Assembly (NCBI GenBank): GCA_016204585.1
Contig: JACQKH010000033.1
Coordinates: 1 to 35,036 of the forward strand
Direction of reading: 5' to 3'
Source: Candidatus Kerfeldbacteria bacterium
Lineage (GTDB): Bacteria; Patescibacteriota; Patescibacteriia; SBBC01
DNA length: 35,036 nucleotides
Shown here piece after piece: positions 21,635 to 27,251 of this stretch. A program made the position numbers and the translations under genes. Below the pieces are notes generated by a model, which was not told where the DNA came from, made no database searches, and saw only the letters and a program-made list of their open reading frames with translations. Each line of letters opens with the position of its first letter. Position 1 is the stretch's first letter.

Positions 21635-21646
21635 TTTCGTTCACAA

Positions 21647-21831
21647 CCCAGCACCAGTCGTTCGGCCGTCAAGGTCGATCGCCTGGAAGACCGCCCGGCA
21701 CTAATCGCGCACGACTGGTGCTGGGCTGCCATCCGCACATCGCCGTTCGCGAGTGTCCGTCGTTTAAACAAATTCTCGCGCCACCGAGTTTGTCTCATGA
21801 CGGACGCGACCGGCGGACGGTGTGTGGATGG
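21647..21831 (+). ncRNA. Candidate structured RNA or structured intergenic region
   Basis: A 15-bp perfect inverted repeat (21647-21661 with 21711-21725) is followed by a second structure. Its outer stem is CCATCCGCACA (21729-21739) with TGTGTGGATGG (21821-21831), then GCCG (21742-21745) with CGGC (21811-21814), and an inner stem GTCCGTC (21755-21761) with GACGGAC (21799-21805). CGCGAG (21748-21753) can pair with CTCGCG (21775-21780) across the inner stem, a pseudoknot. No known RNA family is recognised. The structure count is read by eye; no folding was run. Confidence 0.4.
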
Positions 21832-21942: not shown

Positions 21943-22013
21943 TCGGGGATCGTCTAATGGTAGGACATCACCCTTTGGAGGTGGTTATCCAGGTTCGAAT
22001 CCTGGTCCCCGAG
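21943..22013 (+). tRNA. tRNA-Gln (anticodon UUG)
   Basis: A complete cloverleaf: acceptor TCGGGGA with TCCCCGA, D arm TCGTCTAATGGTAGGAC, anticodon stem TCACC/GGTGG around the loop CTTTGGA (anticodon TTG, glutamine), T arm CAGGTTCGAATCCTG, discriminator G. No CCA is encoded. The 3' 37 bases are repeated downstream. Confidence 0.9.
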
Positions 22014-22065
22014 CGCAGCGCCGGAAGCGGCCTTTTCCGCCGGAGGCGGACTCGCCTTCGGCGAG

Positions 22066-22104
22066 GGAGGTGGTTATCCAGGTTCGAATCCTGGTCCCCG
22101 AGCG
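22066..22104 (+). repeat. Duplicate of tRNA-Gln 3' half (att-like)
   Basis: A 39-base exact repeat of 21977-22015, covering the anticodon 3' stem, T arm and acceptor. It has no 5' half and so cannot fold as a tRNA. It is the inner boundary of the AT-rich glycosyltransferase island. Confidence 0.75.
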
Positions 22105-22343
22105 GTGGGGCTCTTTGCTTGGGAAAACGAATGGTGTTTTGTGAAACGCCAATGTTTTTTGGTTCGAATCTTCCTATGAAAGTCGTAAGTTTTGAAAACT
22201 TTCTTCTTAAGGAGTAAAATAAATCCATTATGAACCGTATTTTCGAGTTACAACTCATACTGAGTACATTTGTTTGAGTCGGTCAATTTCCCTGATCTTA
22301 CTCGATTTGTTGCTGGAGTGAAAGCATCTAATAACCTTGATGT
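22105..22343. other. AT-rich spacer before the glycosyltransferase gene
   Basis: No convincing gene. It contains GGTTCGAATC at 22161-22170, a 10-base match to the T arm of the tRNA, and then sequence without clear promoter boxes. Confidence 0.4.
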
Positions 22344-23819
22344 ATGGAAATGGAACGCGATAGAACGGAATTTTTTTCTAAAATAGCTGAAGAAGCTGAG
22401 CTTAAGGGTTCAGTAAAGAAATACATTGACCTATACTTACCACCTTCTGAAGACAGAATACCAGAAAAAATGAGCGACAGTTGTCAAGTAGCCCTAGTTA
22501 TTCCCGCCTATGGAGAAAGAAAATATATTTTGCGCCCCCTCGGCTCTCTAGCTGAGCAAGTAGGCACATCACCAGATGAGTTTGAAGTTATTATTGTAAT
22601 TAATAATCCACCAAGCGCGCCAATAAAGTTAGAGAATGAACACGACGCAATTTATAAAGCTAGACTACAGCATTATGAAACCGCGTTAGCAGACAACCAA
22701 GAAACTTTGAATTTGTTAAGTGGGATTAAAACATTGTCAGAGGAAGAGATTAGTGCTGGGCTTAGCACGACAGAGATCGAAGAAATTCATCGTATAAAGG
22801 AATCGGGTTTGATTTTTCATGTCATAGATAAAGCTTCTGAAGGCAAAACATTGTCCAGCGAACAAGCTAACGTCGGCGGAGCACGTAATCGAGGCGTAGC
22901 AGAGGCAGTGGCACGCTTTGCGGAGATTGATAGGAATGGAATAATAGCTCAATCAGACGCTGATATTAGATTTGAACCTGATTATGTAGCCAGTTTAATA
23001 AAACAATATCAGAACCATCCCGACATTATTGGGTTCAGAGGGGCCGTAGAATTAGAGTCCGAAGTTGACTCTGGCACAATTTCCGAAAGCACAAAAGAAA
23101 CAACGCGAATGAAGAGGTTGTATAAAAGACTGCTCAATCGCTATAAAGATATTCAGGGTATTGGTTATCAGGGAAAGATTAATCAAGCGCAAGATGATAG
23201 TGGTGAATCTATTCCTGTTTTTTGGGGCTCTAATATGTCGAGCCGAGCGTTTGAAGCCGCTAAAGTTGGCGGGGTGCCAATGATGGGTGCAGGCGAGGAC
23301 CCGGCTTTTGGAAAAAGACTCGCAGCTATAGGTAAGATAGGCTATGCGCCTGATATTAGAGTAGCTCAACTCTCTCGCGTGTCTGCTCGGGCAGAAGGTG
23401 GTCACGGAATAGGTATTCTAAAGGCTAACCGGAGATTAGAAAGAGGTCTAAGTATAGAAGTCGAAAATCCCTTAGTTATTCCTCACATTAATTCACTCAT
23501 TGAAATTATTAAAGAAAGATTATCGTCAACCAAAGATTCTGCCCAAGCTTCAGTTATCGAGGCGGTTCAAGAATTTTTTGGCTCACATAATATTGCTTTC
23601 CGGGAGAAAAGGCTGGCTGAACTTGATGATTATTTGACCTCTGGCAATTTAATAACCGACGAAGGAATACAAGATCTCTTGAGGAAAGCTACTAAAATTA
23701 CTTTGGGGCAAGCAATTAAATATATTTTGGAAATTCCAGAAATACAAGCCAAGTTTCAAGCCGGTATAGAATATAAAGATTTAGTTAAGGCTTTTCAGGA
23801 CATTGAAGGGGATGTTTAA
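22344..23819 (+). CDS. Family-2 glycosyltransferase, AT-rich (island cargo)
   Basis: A 491-residue soluble enzyme (no membrane segment) that transfers a sugar from a nucleotide-sugar. It has the GT-A fold: VALVIPAYGERKYILRPLGS at about 49-68, GGARNRG at 178-184, and the metal/nucleotide motif QSDAD (Asp205, Asp207). A large insert (about 90-170) and a C-terminal helical region (about 400-491) go beyond the catalytic core, so it is longer than usual. Its base composition is clearly more AT-rich than the genes on either side. It is flanked by copies of the tRNA-Gln 3' end, so acquisition by integration is likely. Target sugar acceptor unknown, probably a surface polymer. No other cargo gene is present. 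Confidence 0.8.
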   Translation: MEMERDRTEFFSKIAEEAELKGSVKKYIDLYLPPSEDRIPEKMSDSCQVALVIPAYGERKYILRPLGSLAEQVGTSPDEFEVIIVINNPPSAPIKLENEHDAIYKARLQHYETALADNQETLNLLSGIKTLSEEEISAGLSTTEIEEIHRIKESGLIFHVIDKASEGKTLSSEQANVGGARNRGVAEAVARFAEIDRNGIIAQSDADIRFEPDYVASLIKQYQNHPDIIGFRGAVELESEVDSGTISESTKETTRMKRLYKRLLNRYKDIQGIGYQGKINQAQDDSGESIPVFWGSNMSSRAFEAAKVGGVPMMGAGEDPAFGKRLAAIGKIGYAPDIRVAQLSRVSARAEGGHGIGILKANRRLERGLSIEVENPLVIPHINSLIEIIKERLSSTKDSAQASVIEAVQEFFGSHNIAFREKRLAELDDYLTSGNLITDEGIQDLLRKATKITLGQAIKYILEIPEIQAKFQAGIEYKDLVKAFQDIEGDV

Positions 23820-23968
23820 AAATATTCATCCCAGGTCTGAAGTCCGATCACTAGGGCGGCGGTGGGAGCATCAAAAACTACCTTTTAAGCTGTAATGCAA
23901 ACATCAGCGTGAGGTCCAGACCAGAGTGGCGAGCCGAGGGCGGGATGGTGTGGGGCCGCTCCGCGGGA

Positions 23969-23985
23969 GAATCCTGGTCCCCGAG
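23969..23985 (+). repeat. Third copy of the tRNA-Gln 3' end (att-like)
   Basis: GAATCCTGGTCCCCGAG, identical to 21997-22013 and 22086-22102. It lies 150 nt after the glycosyltransferase stop, and marks the likely right end of the island. Confidence 0.7.
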
Positions 23986-24120: not shown

Positions 24121-26235
24121 ATGAAAACAGTTCATAAAGTGTCTTTAATCGTTGTGGTATTGGCGATTATCGGTGGTGGCCTATGGTGGTGGCTGGGTGG
24201 TAGTGGCGGCGTACCGACCCGTGTTTTTGCTGCTGACCAAACACTGGAAGGGAATTTCGTCGTAACCCAAGGGACAAAAGTGGTCGTCCAGAACGGCGCG
24301 ACCTTGACCGTGAACGGCGACCTCCTGGTGCAGGGTTCACTGGTGTGTGACGGCGGACCGTTGAACCTGAGGGTGAAAGGTGCGGTTACGGTTGAGCGGC
24401 ACGTGCAGTGCGATCGGCCAGCAGCACTCTCCTCCGGCGACGTGGGCAACGGCATCATGGTGGTGGCTAAGACGTTCAACATCACGAAAGATGCGGCGGT
24501 CGTATCGAACGGACACGTGCAGATGGTAACGGACGCAACCAAGCTTGCAACAACGCAAGAAAAAATCGACGCGCTCTACGATGAAGCAGGGAAGTACCGT
24601 GGCGAAAAGTACCACTTTGGTCCGCTTACTCCCCGCGAGGAGATTCCGGAATCGGCAAAGGGTTTACCAACGTCATTCGTTGCTCCAGCCTCATCGACGC
24701 AAGACAATGAGCTTGGATTCCTGGGGAGACTCTTTGTGTCCTCGGCCAACGCGCAGGAACCAGCCGCGGATATCGAAGGCAACCCGGTGGCGAATACAAA
24801 CAAAGTCGGTGGAACTTGGATCGTCGGCGATCCTTCAGCCAAGCCGCCGTTCAACCTGACGATTCCCACGCCGCCGAAGGACATCACCAAGATCATCCTA
24901 AACTTTGACTTTGGCGGTGATGATGTGGAAATCGCTGACTTCGAGCTGACTGGACCTGACGGCCGGCCTGGGAAGGACGATCTCAATCAGAGCTGCGATG
25001 CGAAGGGTGGGAGGGGCGAGAACGCCATGCGTCTCAATGTCAATGCTGCAACGATCACCGTCAACAACTTCGACCTTCATCTCGGCAACGGCGGCCAGGG
25101 CGGGGGCGCCGAAACGACCAAGGACTGTGATCCGGCAACGGCGACCGGCGGCCAGGGCGGTGAAGCCGGGAACTTCAAGATGGTTGCCTCGGAAGGGTTC
25201 AGCATCACCGGGGCCTTCACGATTTTTCCTGGCCAGGGCGGTGAAGGCGGTACCGCCACCGCCCATGGGAAGAAGGGCGATGATGGCTGTGATGGCTTGA
25301 AGGGCGGTGATGCCACCGCCACCGGTGGCAAGGGAGGAGACAACAAAAAGCTTCTGGTTGTTTCTGGAACGGTCGCTGGTACGAGCAACATCGACATCCG
25401 CGAGATGGTCGGCGGCCAGGGCGGCCTCGGGCAGGCGCTCGGCGGGAACGGTGGAGACGGTATCGGCTCTGAGTGCAATGGCGGAGACGGAGGGAAGGCC
25501 ACGGCAACCGGCGGTAAGGGTGGGGACACAAACTGTTCGAAGTTTCCATGCACTGGCGGGAAGGGCGGCGACGCCATTGCTCGTCCAGGAAAGGGTGGAA
25601 ATGGCGGAACGGGAAGTGCTACTGAAGCTGGTGGCAACGGTGGCCAGGGCGGCGATGCGAATTCCACCGCCGGGAAGGGCGGTACGGGCAAGACGGCCAA
25701 TGGAGAAGACGGTACGGTGCAGGATCAGACCGGCGGCGACGGCGGAAATGGTGGTGATGGCTGTGGACCGGGATCGGGTGGCGCTGGCGGTGCCGGTGAC
25801 CCCGAGGGGAAGAAGGGCGAGGACGGAAAGAACCTCTGTCCGAGCCAGCAGAACGTCAATACACAGATACAGCCGACGAACGAGAACACCAACACGCAGA
25901 CTACGCCTGAACCGAAGATTACCGTCCCCGGACCGATGTCCGTCGAGCATCGGATTGGACCAACGCCGTGCCCGACGCCGATCGGAACAATTAAGCTTGA
26001 GGGAGAGAACATCCCTGAGGGAGCGACGCTCGAGGTGGATCCGAACGACAAAGCGCCGGCCTGGTTGAGCTACACCCTGGGGAAGGGGACGGATAGCAAC
26101 GTCAGCTTCACCTGTCAACTCGAGCAGTACGTGACGCAGACGCTCACCCACAACCTCGAGGTTGCAGTTTACGACAAGGACGGAAAGGTCATCAAGACCT
26201 TCACCGTGCCGGTGACCGTCAACGTCAAGAAGTAG
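24121..26235 (+). CDS. Exported glycine-rich (GGxGG-repeat) surface protein
   Basis: A 704-residue protein. Residues 8-30 form a signal or anchor helix (SLIVVVLAIIGGGLWWWLGG). About 35-130 is a beta region with polyhedral-adhesin-like pattern (TLTVNGDLLVQGSLVCDGG). About 321-572 is dominated by Gly repeats such as GGNGGQGGDA, GGKGGD and GGDGGNGGDG, with several Cys (DGCDG, SECNGG, FPCTGG). This composition is known from PE_PGRS-type and polyglycine-II helix proteins, which form stiff rods or ice-like bundles. The C-terminal 100 residues are a beta domain. It is probably a structural surface component; no enzyme motif is seen. The long open frame on the opposite strand is a composition shadow. 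Confidence 0.8.
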   Translation: MKTVHKVSLIVVVLAIIGGGLWWWLGGSGGVPTRVFAADQTLEGNFVVTQGTKVVVQNGATLTVNGDLLVQGSLVCDGGPLNLRVKGAVTVERHVQCDRPAALSSGDVGNGIMVVAKTFNITKDAAVVSNGHVQMVTDATKLATTQEKIDALYDEAGKYRGEKYHFGPLTPREEIPESAKGLPTSFVAPASSTQDNELGFLGRLFVSSANAQEPAADIEGNPVANTNKVGGTWIVGDPSAKPPFNLTIPTPPKDITKIILNFDFGGDDVEIADFELTGPDGRPGKDDLNQSCDAKGGRGENAMRLNVNAATITVNNFDLHLGNGGQGGGAETTKDCDPATATGGQGGEAGNFKMVASEGFSITGAFTIFPGQGGEGGTATAHGKKGDDGCDGLKGGDATATGGKGGDNKKLLVVSGTVAGTSNIDIREMVGGQGGLGQALGGNGGDGIGSECNGGDGGKATATGGKGGDTNCSKFPCTGGKGGDAIARPGKGGNGGTGSATEAGGNGGQGGDANSTAGKGGTGKTANGEDGTVQDQTGGDGGNGGDGCGPGSGGAGGAGDPEGKKGEDGKNLCPSQQNVNTQIQPTNENTNTQTTPEPKITVPGPMSVEHRIGPTPCPTPIGTIKLEGENIPEGATLEVDPNDKAPAWLSYTLGKGTDSNVSFTCQLEQYVTQTLTHNLEVAVYDKDGKVIKTFTVPVTVNVKK

Positions 26236-26515: not shown

Positions 26516-26546
26516 GGGATGACGAAATTCATCACCATTGGAGCAT

Positions 26547-27251
26547 ATGAAGCGAAACAACAAGGGCAGTTACTCGGTTGAACCGGAAATGCACCACGAA
26601 CCATTCGACTTCACCCACGATATCACCTGGCGCATTTTTCGGATCATGTCCGAGTTCACTGAGGGAATTGAACTCGTTTCCGGACTGAAGCGGCCGGTCA
26701 CCTTTTTCGGTTCGGCCCGTTTCGGTCCGAAGAGCCGCTACTACCAGGAGGCGTACAAACTAGCCAAGATCCTTGGCCGGGCCGGGTTCAGCATCGTTAC
26801 CGGCGGCGGTCCGGGCATCATGGAAGCGGCCAATCGGGGGGCGGTTGATACCAAGGCGCCTTCGGTTGGTCTGAACATTCAGCTGCCGGCCGAACAGCGA
26901 ACGAACAAGTTCGTGAAAAAAAGCAGCGGGTTCTATTATTTCTTCTCGCGCAAGGCCATGCTGTCAACCTCGGCCCAGGCCTACGTGTTCTTTCCCGGTG
27001 GATTCGGAACACTCGACGAGCTGTTCTCGATCTTGACGCTCATCCAAACAAAGAAGATCGAGCCCCGGCCGGTGGTGCTGTACGGCAAGGATTTCTGGCG
27101 GAAGCTCAATTTTTTCATTAAGGAAAACATGGTCCGTCGGCACCGCATGATCGAGCCGCGCGATTTGCGGCTCTACACCATTGTTGACAGCGTAAACTTG
27201 GCGGCTCGGATCATTAAGCGTTCAAAGCGTCGCGTCTACACGTTCATGTGA
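26547..27251 (+). CDS. LOG-family (lysine decarboxylase-like) protein
   Basis: A 234-residue Rossmann-fold protein of the LOG/TIGR00730 family. Signature motifs GGGPGIMEAANRGA (about 91-104) and PGGFGTLDEL are intact. Members hydrolyse nucleoside 5'-monophosphates to base and ribose phosphate; the 'lysine decarboxylase' name is historical. Start at ATG 26547 with GGAG close by, not the TTG 9 nt upstream. It ends 2 nt before murD, so the two are probably co-transcribed. Nothing in the sequence tells the base specificity. Confidence 0.85.
   Translation: MKRNNKGSYSVEPEMHHEPFDFTHDITWRIFRIMSEFTEGIELVSGLKRPVTFFGSARFGPKSRYYQEAYKLAKILGRAGFSIVTGGGPGIMEAANRGAVDTKAPSVGLNIQLPAEQRTNKFVKKSSGFYYFFSRKAMLSTSAQAYVFFPGGFGTLDELFSILTLIQTKKIEPRPVVLYGKDFWRKLNFFIKENMVRRHRMIEPRDLRLYTIVDSVNLAARIIKRSKRRVYTFM

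Follow-up and report, generated by a model that had tools for sequence, protein, structure and literature searches.

A tRNA-Gln gene beside two broken copies of itself in a Candidatus Kerfeldbacteria genome: candidate scars of two insertion events

Layout of the tRNA-Gln locus

We analysed the surroundings of a transfer RNA gene, tRNA-Gln(TTG), in a stretch of 35,036 nucleotides (nt) from a Candidatus Kerfeldbacteria bacterium (contig JACQKH010000033.1 of assembly GCA_016204585.1), called here the window. The source assembly (G000) is about 1.04 Mb and the window sits on its contig C3. The intact gene is followed by an exact copy of its 3' half, by an AT-rich gene for a family-2 glycosyltransferase (GT2) and by an exact copy of its 3' end (Table 1). 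All four had been described in an earlier note made from the sequence alone, and all were found as described. Judged from sequence comparisons, it is fairly probable that two insertion events left the intact tRNA-Gln beside these two broken copies, one of them seen as a hairpin scar of the kind linked to GIY-YIG nuclease genes and the other, next to it, as the remnant of a recombinase element.

Table 1. Features of the tRNA-Gln locus, in window coordinates
Feature	Position	Strand	Remarks
Intact tRNA-Gln(TTG)	21943-22013 (or 22014)	+	working copy; ARAGORN; Rfam RF00005, 62 bits
GCGGCCTTT	22027-22035	+	remnant of the 5' side of the anticodon arm, ending at anticodon position 35; similar context (aaaGCCTTT) in locus L013
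Perfect double hairpin, TCCGCCggaGGCGGA + CTCGCCttcGGCGAG	22036-22065	+	inserted between anticodon positions 35 and 36
39-nt copy of the tRNA-Gln 3' half	22066-22104	+	exact; anticodon position 36 through the 3' end into the following bases
64-nt arm, GGTGGGGCT...AATGTTTTTTGGTTCGAATCT	22104-22171	+	terminator-like hairpin; candidate left attachment site (attL) of a serine-recombinase element
GT2 gene	22344-23819	+	491 amino acids; AT-rich; PF00535 at 40 bits; putative cargo
Small hairpin, CCGCtccGCGGga	23956-23968	+	abuts the 17-nt copy; junction like other T-loop splits
17-nt copy of the tRNA-Gln 3' end, GAATCCTGGTCCCCGAG	23969-23985	+	exact; starts in the T loop (GAATCC...); candidate right attachment site (attR) or T-loop scar
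LOG/lysine-decarboxylase-like gene	26538-27251	+	conserved beside tRNA-Gln in relatives; marker of the island-free arrangement

The 17-base string occurs three times in the whole assembly, always at this locus and on one strand, and is therefore not common genome-wide, a point that the earlier note had left for checking; simple arithmetic gives about 1e-4 further chance occurrences and the reversed control gave 0. Among 32 tRNAs checked in G000, a downstream copy with a gene-sized insert is unique to the window tRNA-Gln. The inserted DNA differs in base composition from its surroundings, with a GC content of 40.8% in the GT2 open reading frame (ORF) and 41.6% in 22105-23968 against 55.3% in the window.

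The comparison with relatives that the earlier note had proposed turned out in its favour. In a genome of the same family (G004) the tRNA-Gln(TTG) lies about 150 nt before the LOG gene, and in G008 the two are about 0.9 kb apart, in both cases without the GT gene, whereas 4.5 kb separates them in the window. The GT gene had 0 matches in all family and order relatives searched, and matches, mostly of low identity, in 18 of 381 genomes of the class. Because relatives have the tRNA-Gln next to the LOG gene but lack the GT gene, the segment 22105-23985 can be taken as an insertion. The ORF at 24121 was also considered as part of the island and was dropped, as it has a 71% homologue in the family relative G002. 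Separately, G004 carries on contig C40 (locus L124, about 665-720 in tRNA orientation) a tRNA-Gln-like piece with the anticodon TTA, which would pair with the UAA stop codon; it lacks a matching 5' acceptor side and is probably a pseudogene.

The double hairpin and GIY-YIG genes at broken tRNAs

Directly 5' of the 39-nt copy lies the remnant of the anticodon arm and then the double hairpin, so that the anticodon is split between positions 35 and 36 (35|36). The hairpin has a fold z of -3.2 to -3.7, and among all fetched loci its motif was found once here and twice in L013, with 0 in the reversed-sequence control. L013 is a tRNA-Gln with a GIY-YIG insertion in a genome of the same class (G015), and in it a tRNA 5' half is followed in turn by the double hairpin, the GIY-YIG ORF, an intact tRNA-Gln, a second copy of the double hairpin and the tRNA 3' half. 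The stretch 22015-22104 of the window looks like the right-hand half of this structure, which is whole in L013. A similar double hairpin is found in Wolfebacteria (CP011209), in the anticodon of a tRNA-Glu copy that is followed by a GIY-YIG gene and an intact tRNA-Glu. The window holds the loop-split tRNA copy with a hairpin at the split (35|36, the L013 design) by which a free-standing GIY-YIG insertion is recognised. No GIY-YIG ORF was found at the window locus, the PF01541 matches in G000 being on C18, C14, C23 and C31 and none on C3.

These results suggest a first event in which DNA was inserted into the anticodon of a tRNA-Gln copy, the double hairpin splitting it at 35|36, and of which the 3' half alone would have been left, giving the scar 22015-22104. 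From the likeness to L013 we infer that GIY-YIG cutting was the cause. The 39-nt and 17-nt copies are probably of different origins.

GIY-YIG genes linked to tRNAs proved to be frequent. In 12 genomes of the class, 22 of 48 solo GIY-YIG ORFs had a same-strand tRNA within 350 nt, with broken tRNA pieces in 17 cases; in the named genomes from a genome-wide scan with a close four-sequence alignment (A2) the corresponding figures were 35 of 48 and 28, which is not an unbiased rate because the scan was seeded from tRNA-linked nucleases. In neither set was the neighbouring tRNA ever solely on the opposite strand. The tRNA-linked loci of the scan include Bacteroidota, Chlorobiota, Chloroflexota and Omnitrophota, and in the relatives, in Bacteroidota and in Chloroflexota small GIY-YIG genes were repeatedly seen with a broken copy of a tRNA on one side and an intact copy of that tRNA on the other. 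Where the nuclease precedes the tRNA, the broken 5' piece is typically upstream, and where it follows the tRNA, the broken 3' piece is typically downstream. The conserved GIY-YIG residues Y, YxG, R, H and E are present in the ORFs of the relatives. Two cultured Bacteroidota isolates, Leeuwenhoekiella polynyae LMG 29608 and Neolewinella aquimaris DSM 105137, carry candidate cassettes, the GIY-YIG gene lying between a broken and an intact tRNA (Ala and Asp) at L168 2410-2805 and L204 2334-2850.

The best-preserved case in G000 is on contig C18 (L094, 571-1039), where a tRNA-Ala(TGC) is split at 34|35. Between its halves lie a GIY-YIG ORF with a 15-nt inverted repeat around it and an intact tRNA-Ala(TGC) of different sequence with an inverted repeat of its own. 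Joined in silico, the outer halves give a complete, perfect tRNA-Ala(TGC) fold, and the outer and intact genes differ at 16 of 73 positions. Such a fold, which some of the outer halves retain, would be expected if the split pieces were working disrupted tRNAs, with introns or trans-splicing, rather than scars, but most outer pieces are further interrupted or incomplete, no intron family was found and an intact copy of the same isotype stands alongside, which leaves this explanation hardly credible. A group I intron was considered as well and rejected, since Rfam shows tRNA only in the window and in 12 related loci.

At L185 and L204 the 3' part of the tRNA and its trailer are duplicated almost exactly, so that what replaces the lost part can be duplicated host sequence and not a foreign tRNA. 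This kind of duplication, together with the adjacent and same-strand position of the copies, is what plain tandem duplication and decay of tRNA genes, without any mobile element, would produce. Against it, the splits are at loops and not random, the 5' pieces lie upstream and the 3' pieces downstream of the intact copy, often with a GIY-YIG ORF between, and the two Ala copies of G000 are too different to fit it easily; we regard tandem duplication as very improbable. With insertion events as the preferred explanation, the essential tRNA would stay intact in both events because the insertion either carries along the part that is lost or duplicates it.

The glycosyltransferase segment and its two ends

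The left end of the GT segment is formed by the arm that abuts the 39-nt copy. Among the 381 class genomes the arm was found at one other site only (G009:C44:12989), directly after a tRNA-Asn, and the alignment of the two scored 62 compared with a shuffle maximum of 25. At the tRNA-Asn site the arm is followed by a serine recombinase in convergent orientation. In this locus (L228, 1597-2511) the N-terminal domain of the recombinase is fused in frame to a fragment of the terminase large subunit, and we read it as the relic of a deleted prophage. Serine recombinases are found just 3' of a tRNA and convergent with it in five of eight cases in ten genomes of this order, and four viral contigs with close relatives of the recombinase have the same geometry. 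In G005 a 9.3-kb element has its recombinase at a tRNA-Lys and a 20-nt copy of the tRNA 3' end at its far end. This copy likewise begins in the T loop, but as it too adjoins a T-loop hairpin the element cannot serve as a clean control.

The right end is the 17-nt copy with the small hairpin before it. Junctions of this type were seen in the window and at L067, L068, L072, L132, L189, L222, L228 and L244, a comparison that is descriptive and not statistical because the regular expression used is permissive.

Searches for the remaining parts of such an element were negative. PF00239, the serine recombinase domain, had 0 matches in the whole G000 assembly, window included, and no integrase was found among ten window ORFs scanned around the island, PF00589 itself not having been searched in G000. 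The GT2 protein matched nothing in PDB, NCBIfam or PHROG, and the linkage check found no GT homologue elsewhere beside a tRNA. Three scans of viral collections returned relatives of the recombinase and left both the GT gene and the arm unmatched.

Of what a serine-recombinase integrative element would leave, the locus shows a far-end direct repeat of the tRNA 3' end, a recombinase-linked arm (with its single partner) and an unoccupied site in relatives; a recombinase gene within the element was not found. A decayed recombinase element is accordingly only the favoured reading of 22105-23985. A foreign element would have inserted at the tRNA 3' end, most likely through a serine recombinase, with the arm, common to a phage-type serine-recombinase element at another tRNA, as its left end and the 17-nt copy as its right end. 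The recombinase would then have been lost, leaving the GT2 gene as the surviving cargo; from its position and composition we infer that the GT gene came with this event. The GT segment is likely the older insertion because it lies farther out in the nested arrangement.

These results change the earlier note in part. Its picture of foreign AT-rich DNA with no recombinase at the locus is supported, and a decayed integrated element fits 22105-23985, with an arm that recurs at one other tRNA beside a serine recombinase. It had also proposed two successive insertions at the same tRNA, the GT gene arriving second; repeated insertion stands and the order is likely reversed. Its use of the 39-nt copy as an ordinary attachment (att) site is not supported, as the first base of this copy lies within the anticodon and a double hairpin precedes it, like the GIY-YIG/hairpin insertions at many tRNAs; nor is a single integrase-type origin for both copies supported.

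Several observations weigh against the two events as we have reconstructed them. Neither a GIY-YIG gene nor an outer tRNA 5' half is left at the window locus, so that the hairpin and the split position, both shared with L013, are the ground for the first event. The unoccupied arrangement comes from relatives outside the genus, and the exact empty site is not among them. The arm has its partner at one single other site, GT homologues elsewhere are not adjacent to tRNAs and the GT gene is unmatched in viral contigs. Finally, the 17-nt copy need not be an attR, because a hairpin like that at its left is typical of T-loop scars without a recombinase.

This last point leads to a different explanation of the right end. 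The 17-nt copy would be, like the first event, a scar of the GIY-YIG/hairpin type, this time in the T loop, and the GT gene would have reached its place between the two scars independently of them. The hairpin directly before GAATCC matches several recombinase-free T-loop splits, cargo-free T-loop copies about 85-170 nt from their tRNA are common, and the missing tRNA linkage of the GT homologues would be expected. But the 39-nt copy is directly followed by an arm known from a serine-recombinase site, and the DNA from this arm to the end of the GT gene is AT-rich, so that we consider this explanation rather unlikely. Somewhat less likely still is that two conventional integrase-type elements used the tRNA-Gln 3' end in turn, left the two copies as their att sites and lost their integrases. 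Exact 17-nt and 39-nt repeats of the 3' end, AT-rich DNA and GT-free relatives would all follow from it, but the 39-nt copy begins within the anticodon behind the double hairpin, 52 nt from the tRNA and without an element body, the same hairpin and split accompany a GIY-YIG gene and not an integrase in L013, and broken copies occur genome-wide and are not confined to tRNA 3' ends.

Broken self-copies at other tRNAs and comparable systems

When the tRNAs of G000 were sought without selection, 12 of 22 testable ones (11 of 21 listed tRNAs plus the window tRNA) had a split self-copy on the same strand within 600 nt, at a score of at least 24. In the class sample, 50 of 112 distinct tRNAs had a same-strand partial self-copy within 600 nt (score at least 28), whereas the opposite strand gave 1 and reversed tRNAs gave 0. 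When the sample was enlarged, among others by loci that had been fetched for GIY-YIG, 87 of 171 tRNAs had one, versus 0. None of 16 Escherichia coli tRNAs had a split self-copy. The split points cluster at the anticodon, the D loop and the T loop; upstream pieces run from base 1 to the D loop or anticodon, and downstream pieces run from the anticodon or T loop, mostly to the 3' end.

Perhaps, then, the broken copies are scars of a widespread and so far undescribed class of mobile elements in bacteria. A small GIY-YIG gene would insert into one of three loops of an essential tRNA (anticodon, D or T loop) and at the same time duplicate or bring along what is lost, and so tie host and element together. 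The window would be a hairpin-only relic of this kind, followed by the cargo of another element. We put this forward tentatively, as a proposal with a little less than an even chance of being right. In the literature searched, which comprised open-access papers only, no tRNA-inserted GIY-YIG elements were found in bacteria.

The closest known systems share parts of this arrangement. SegB of phages T4 and T6 is a free-standing homing endonuclease of the GIY-YIG type with cutting sites in tRNA genes; it is reported to cut at the T-loop-like motif RAWTSGAAC and to drive tandem amplification of tRNA segments (PMC13096335). It resembles the present cases as a solo GIY-YIG nuclease among tRNA genes, and its motif is complementary to GTTCSAWTY, the T-loop sequence at which the T-loop splits of the present loci are found. 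The published work is an experimental precedent for GIY-YIG cutting in tRNA genes. However, SegB belongs to phage genomes and is not reported there as an insertion that splits a bacterial tRNA and is accompanied by an intact copy, and the window has no GIY-YIG gene. In fungal mitochondria, mobile endonuclease ORFs with duplicated gene ends are known in Allomyces atp6 and in Glomus atp6, atp9, cox2 and nad3 (PMC3630166); there too an endonuclease enters an essential gene together with a replacement 3' part and the native part is stranded downstream, but the targets are protein genes, whereas here they are bacterial tRNA genes with loop splits and junction hairpins. A tRNA-Thr of Caldiarchaeum is disrupted by a recombinase element, explained by a pNOB8-type integrase (PMC3293823), and its inserted recombinase-bearing segment is likewise flanked by a tRNA fragment and an intact tRNA, although this case is archaeal, involves introns and concerns one locus. 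Phages and integrative elements that use serine recombinases at tRNA 3' ends are like the GT segment in their tRNA-adjoining arm, short 3' repeat at the far end and foreign composition, and differ in carrying the recombinase that the window and the whole assembly lack.

If the proposal is right, mobile elements have replaced many of the tRNA genes in these very small genomes at least once, which would account for tRNA fragments and solo GIY-YIG genes that are otherwise puzzling and would warn annotators of pseudo-tRNAs. It would also provide natural, testable endonuclease elements that break an essential gene while an intact copy persists, a natural counterpart of 'home-and-rescue' designs. 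The locus itself illustrates that short tRNA repeats can be confused, or mixed, with ordinary att sites.

Some further sequence features were noticed. Hairpin units of about 100 nt with shared motifs such as GACGAGAAGGGCCGAG and AAGGAGYGAGGGC lie, at L010, L033, L055, L081 and L261, between the tRNA 3' end and an exact 3'-end copy that starts in the T loop, and these units are a second recurrent T-loop element. In the window an imperfect palindrome, AACCCAGCACCAGTCG...CGACTGGTGCTGGGCT, follows ssb at 21644-21728 and resembles hairpins of the form CCCAGCACC/GGTGCTGGG that are found within interrupted tRNA copies of relatives. Another AT-rich stretch is present at the start of the contig (window 1-3000), with a GC content of 39-48% against 55% overall.
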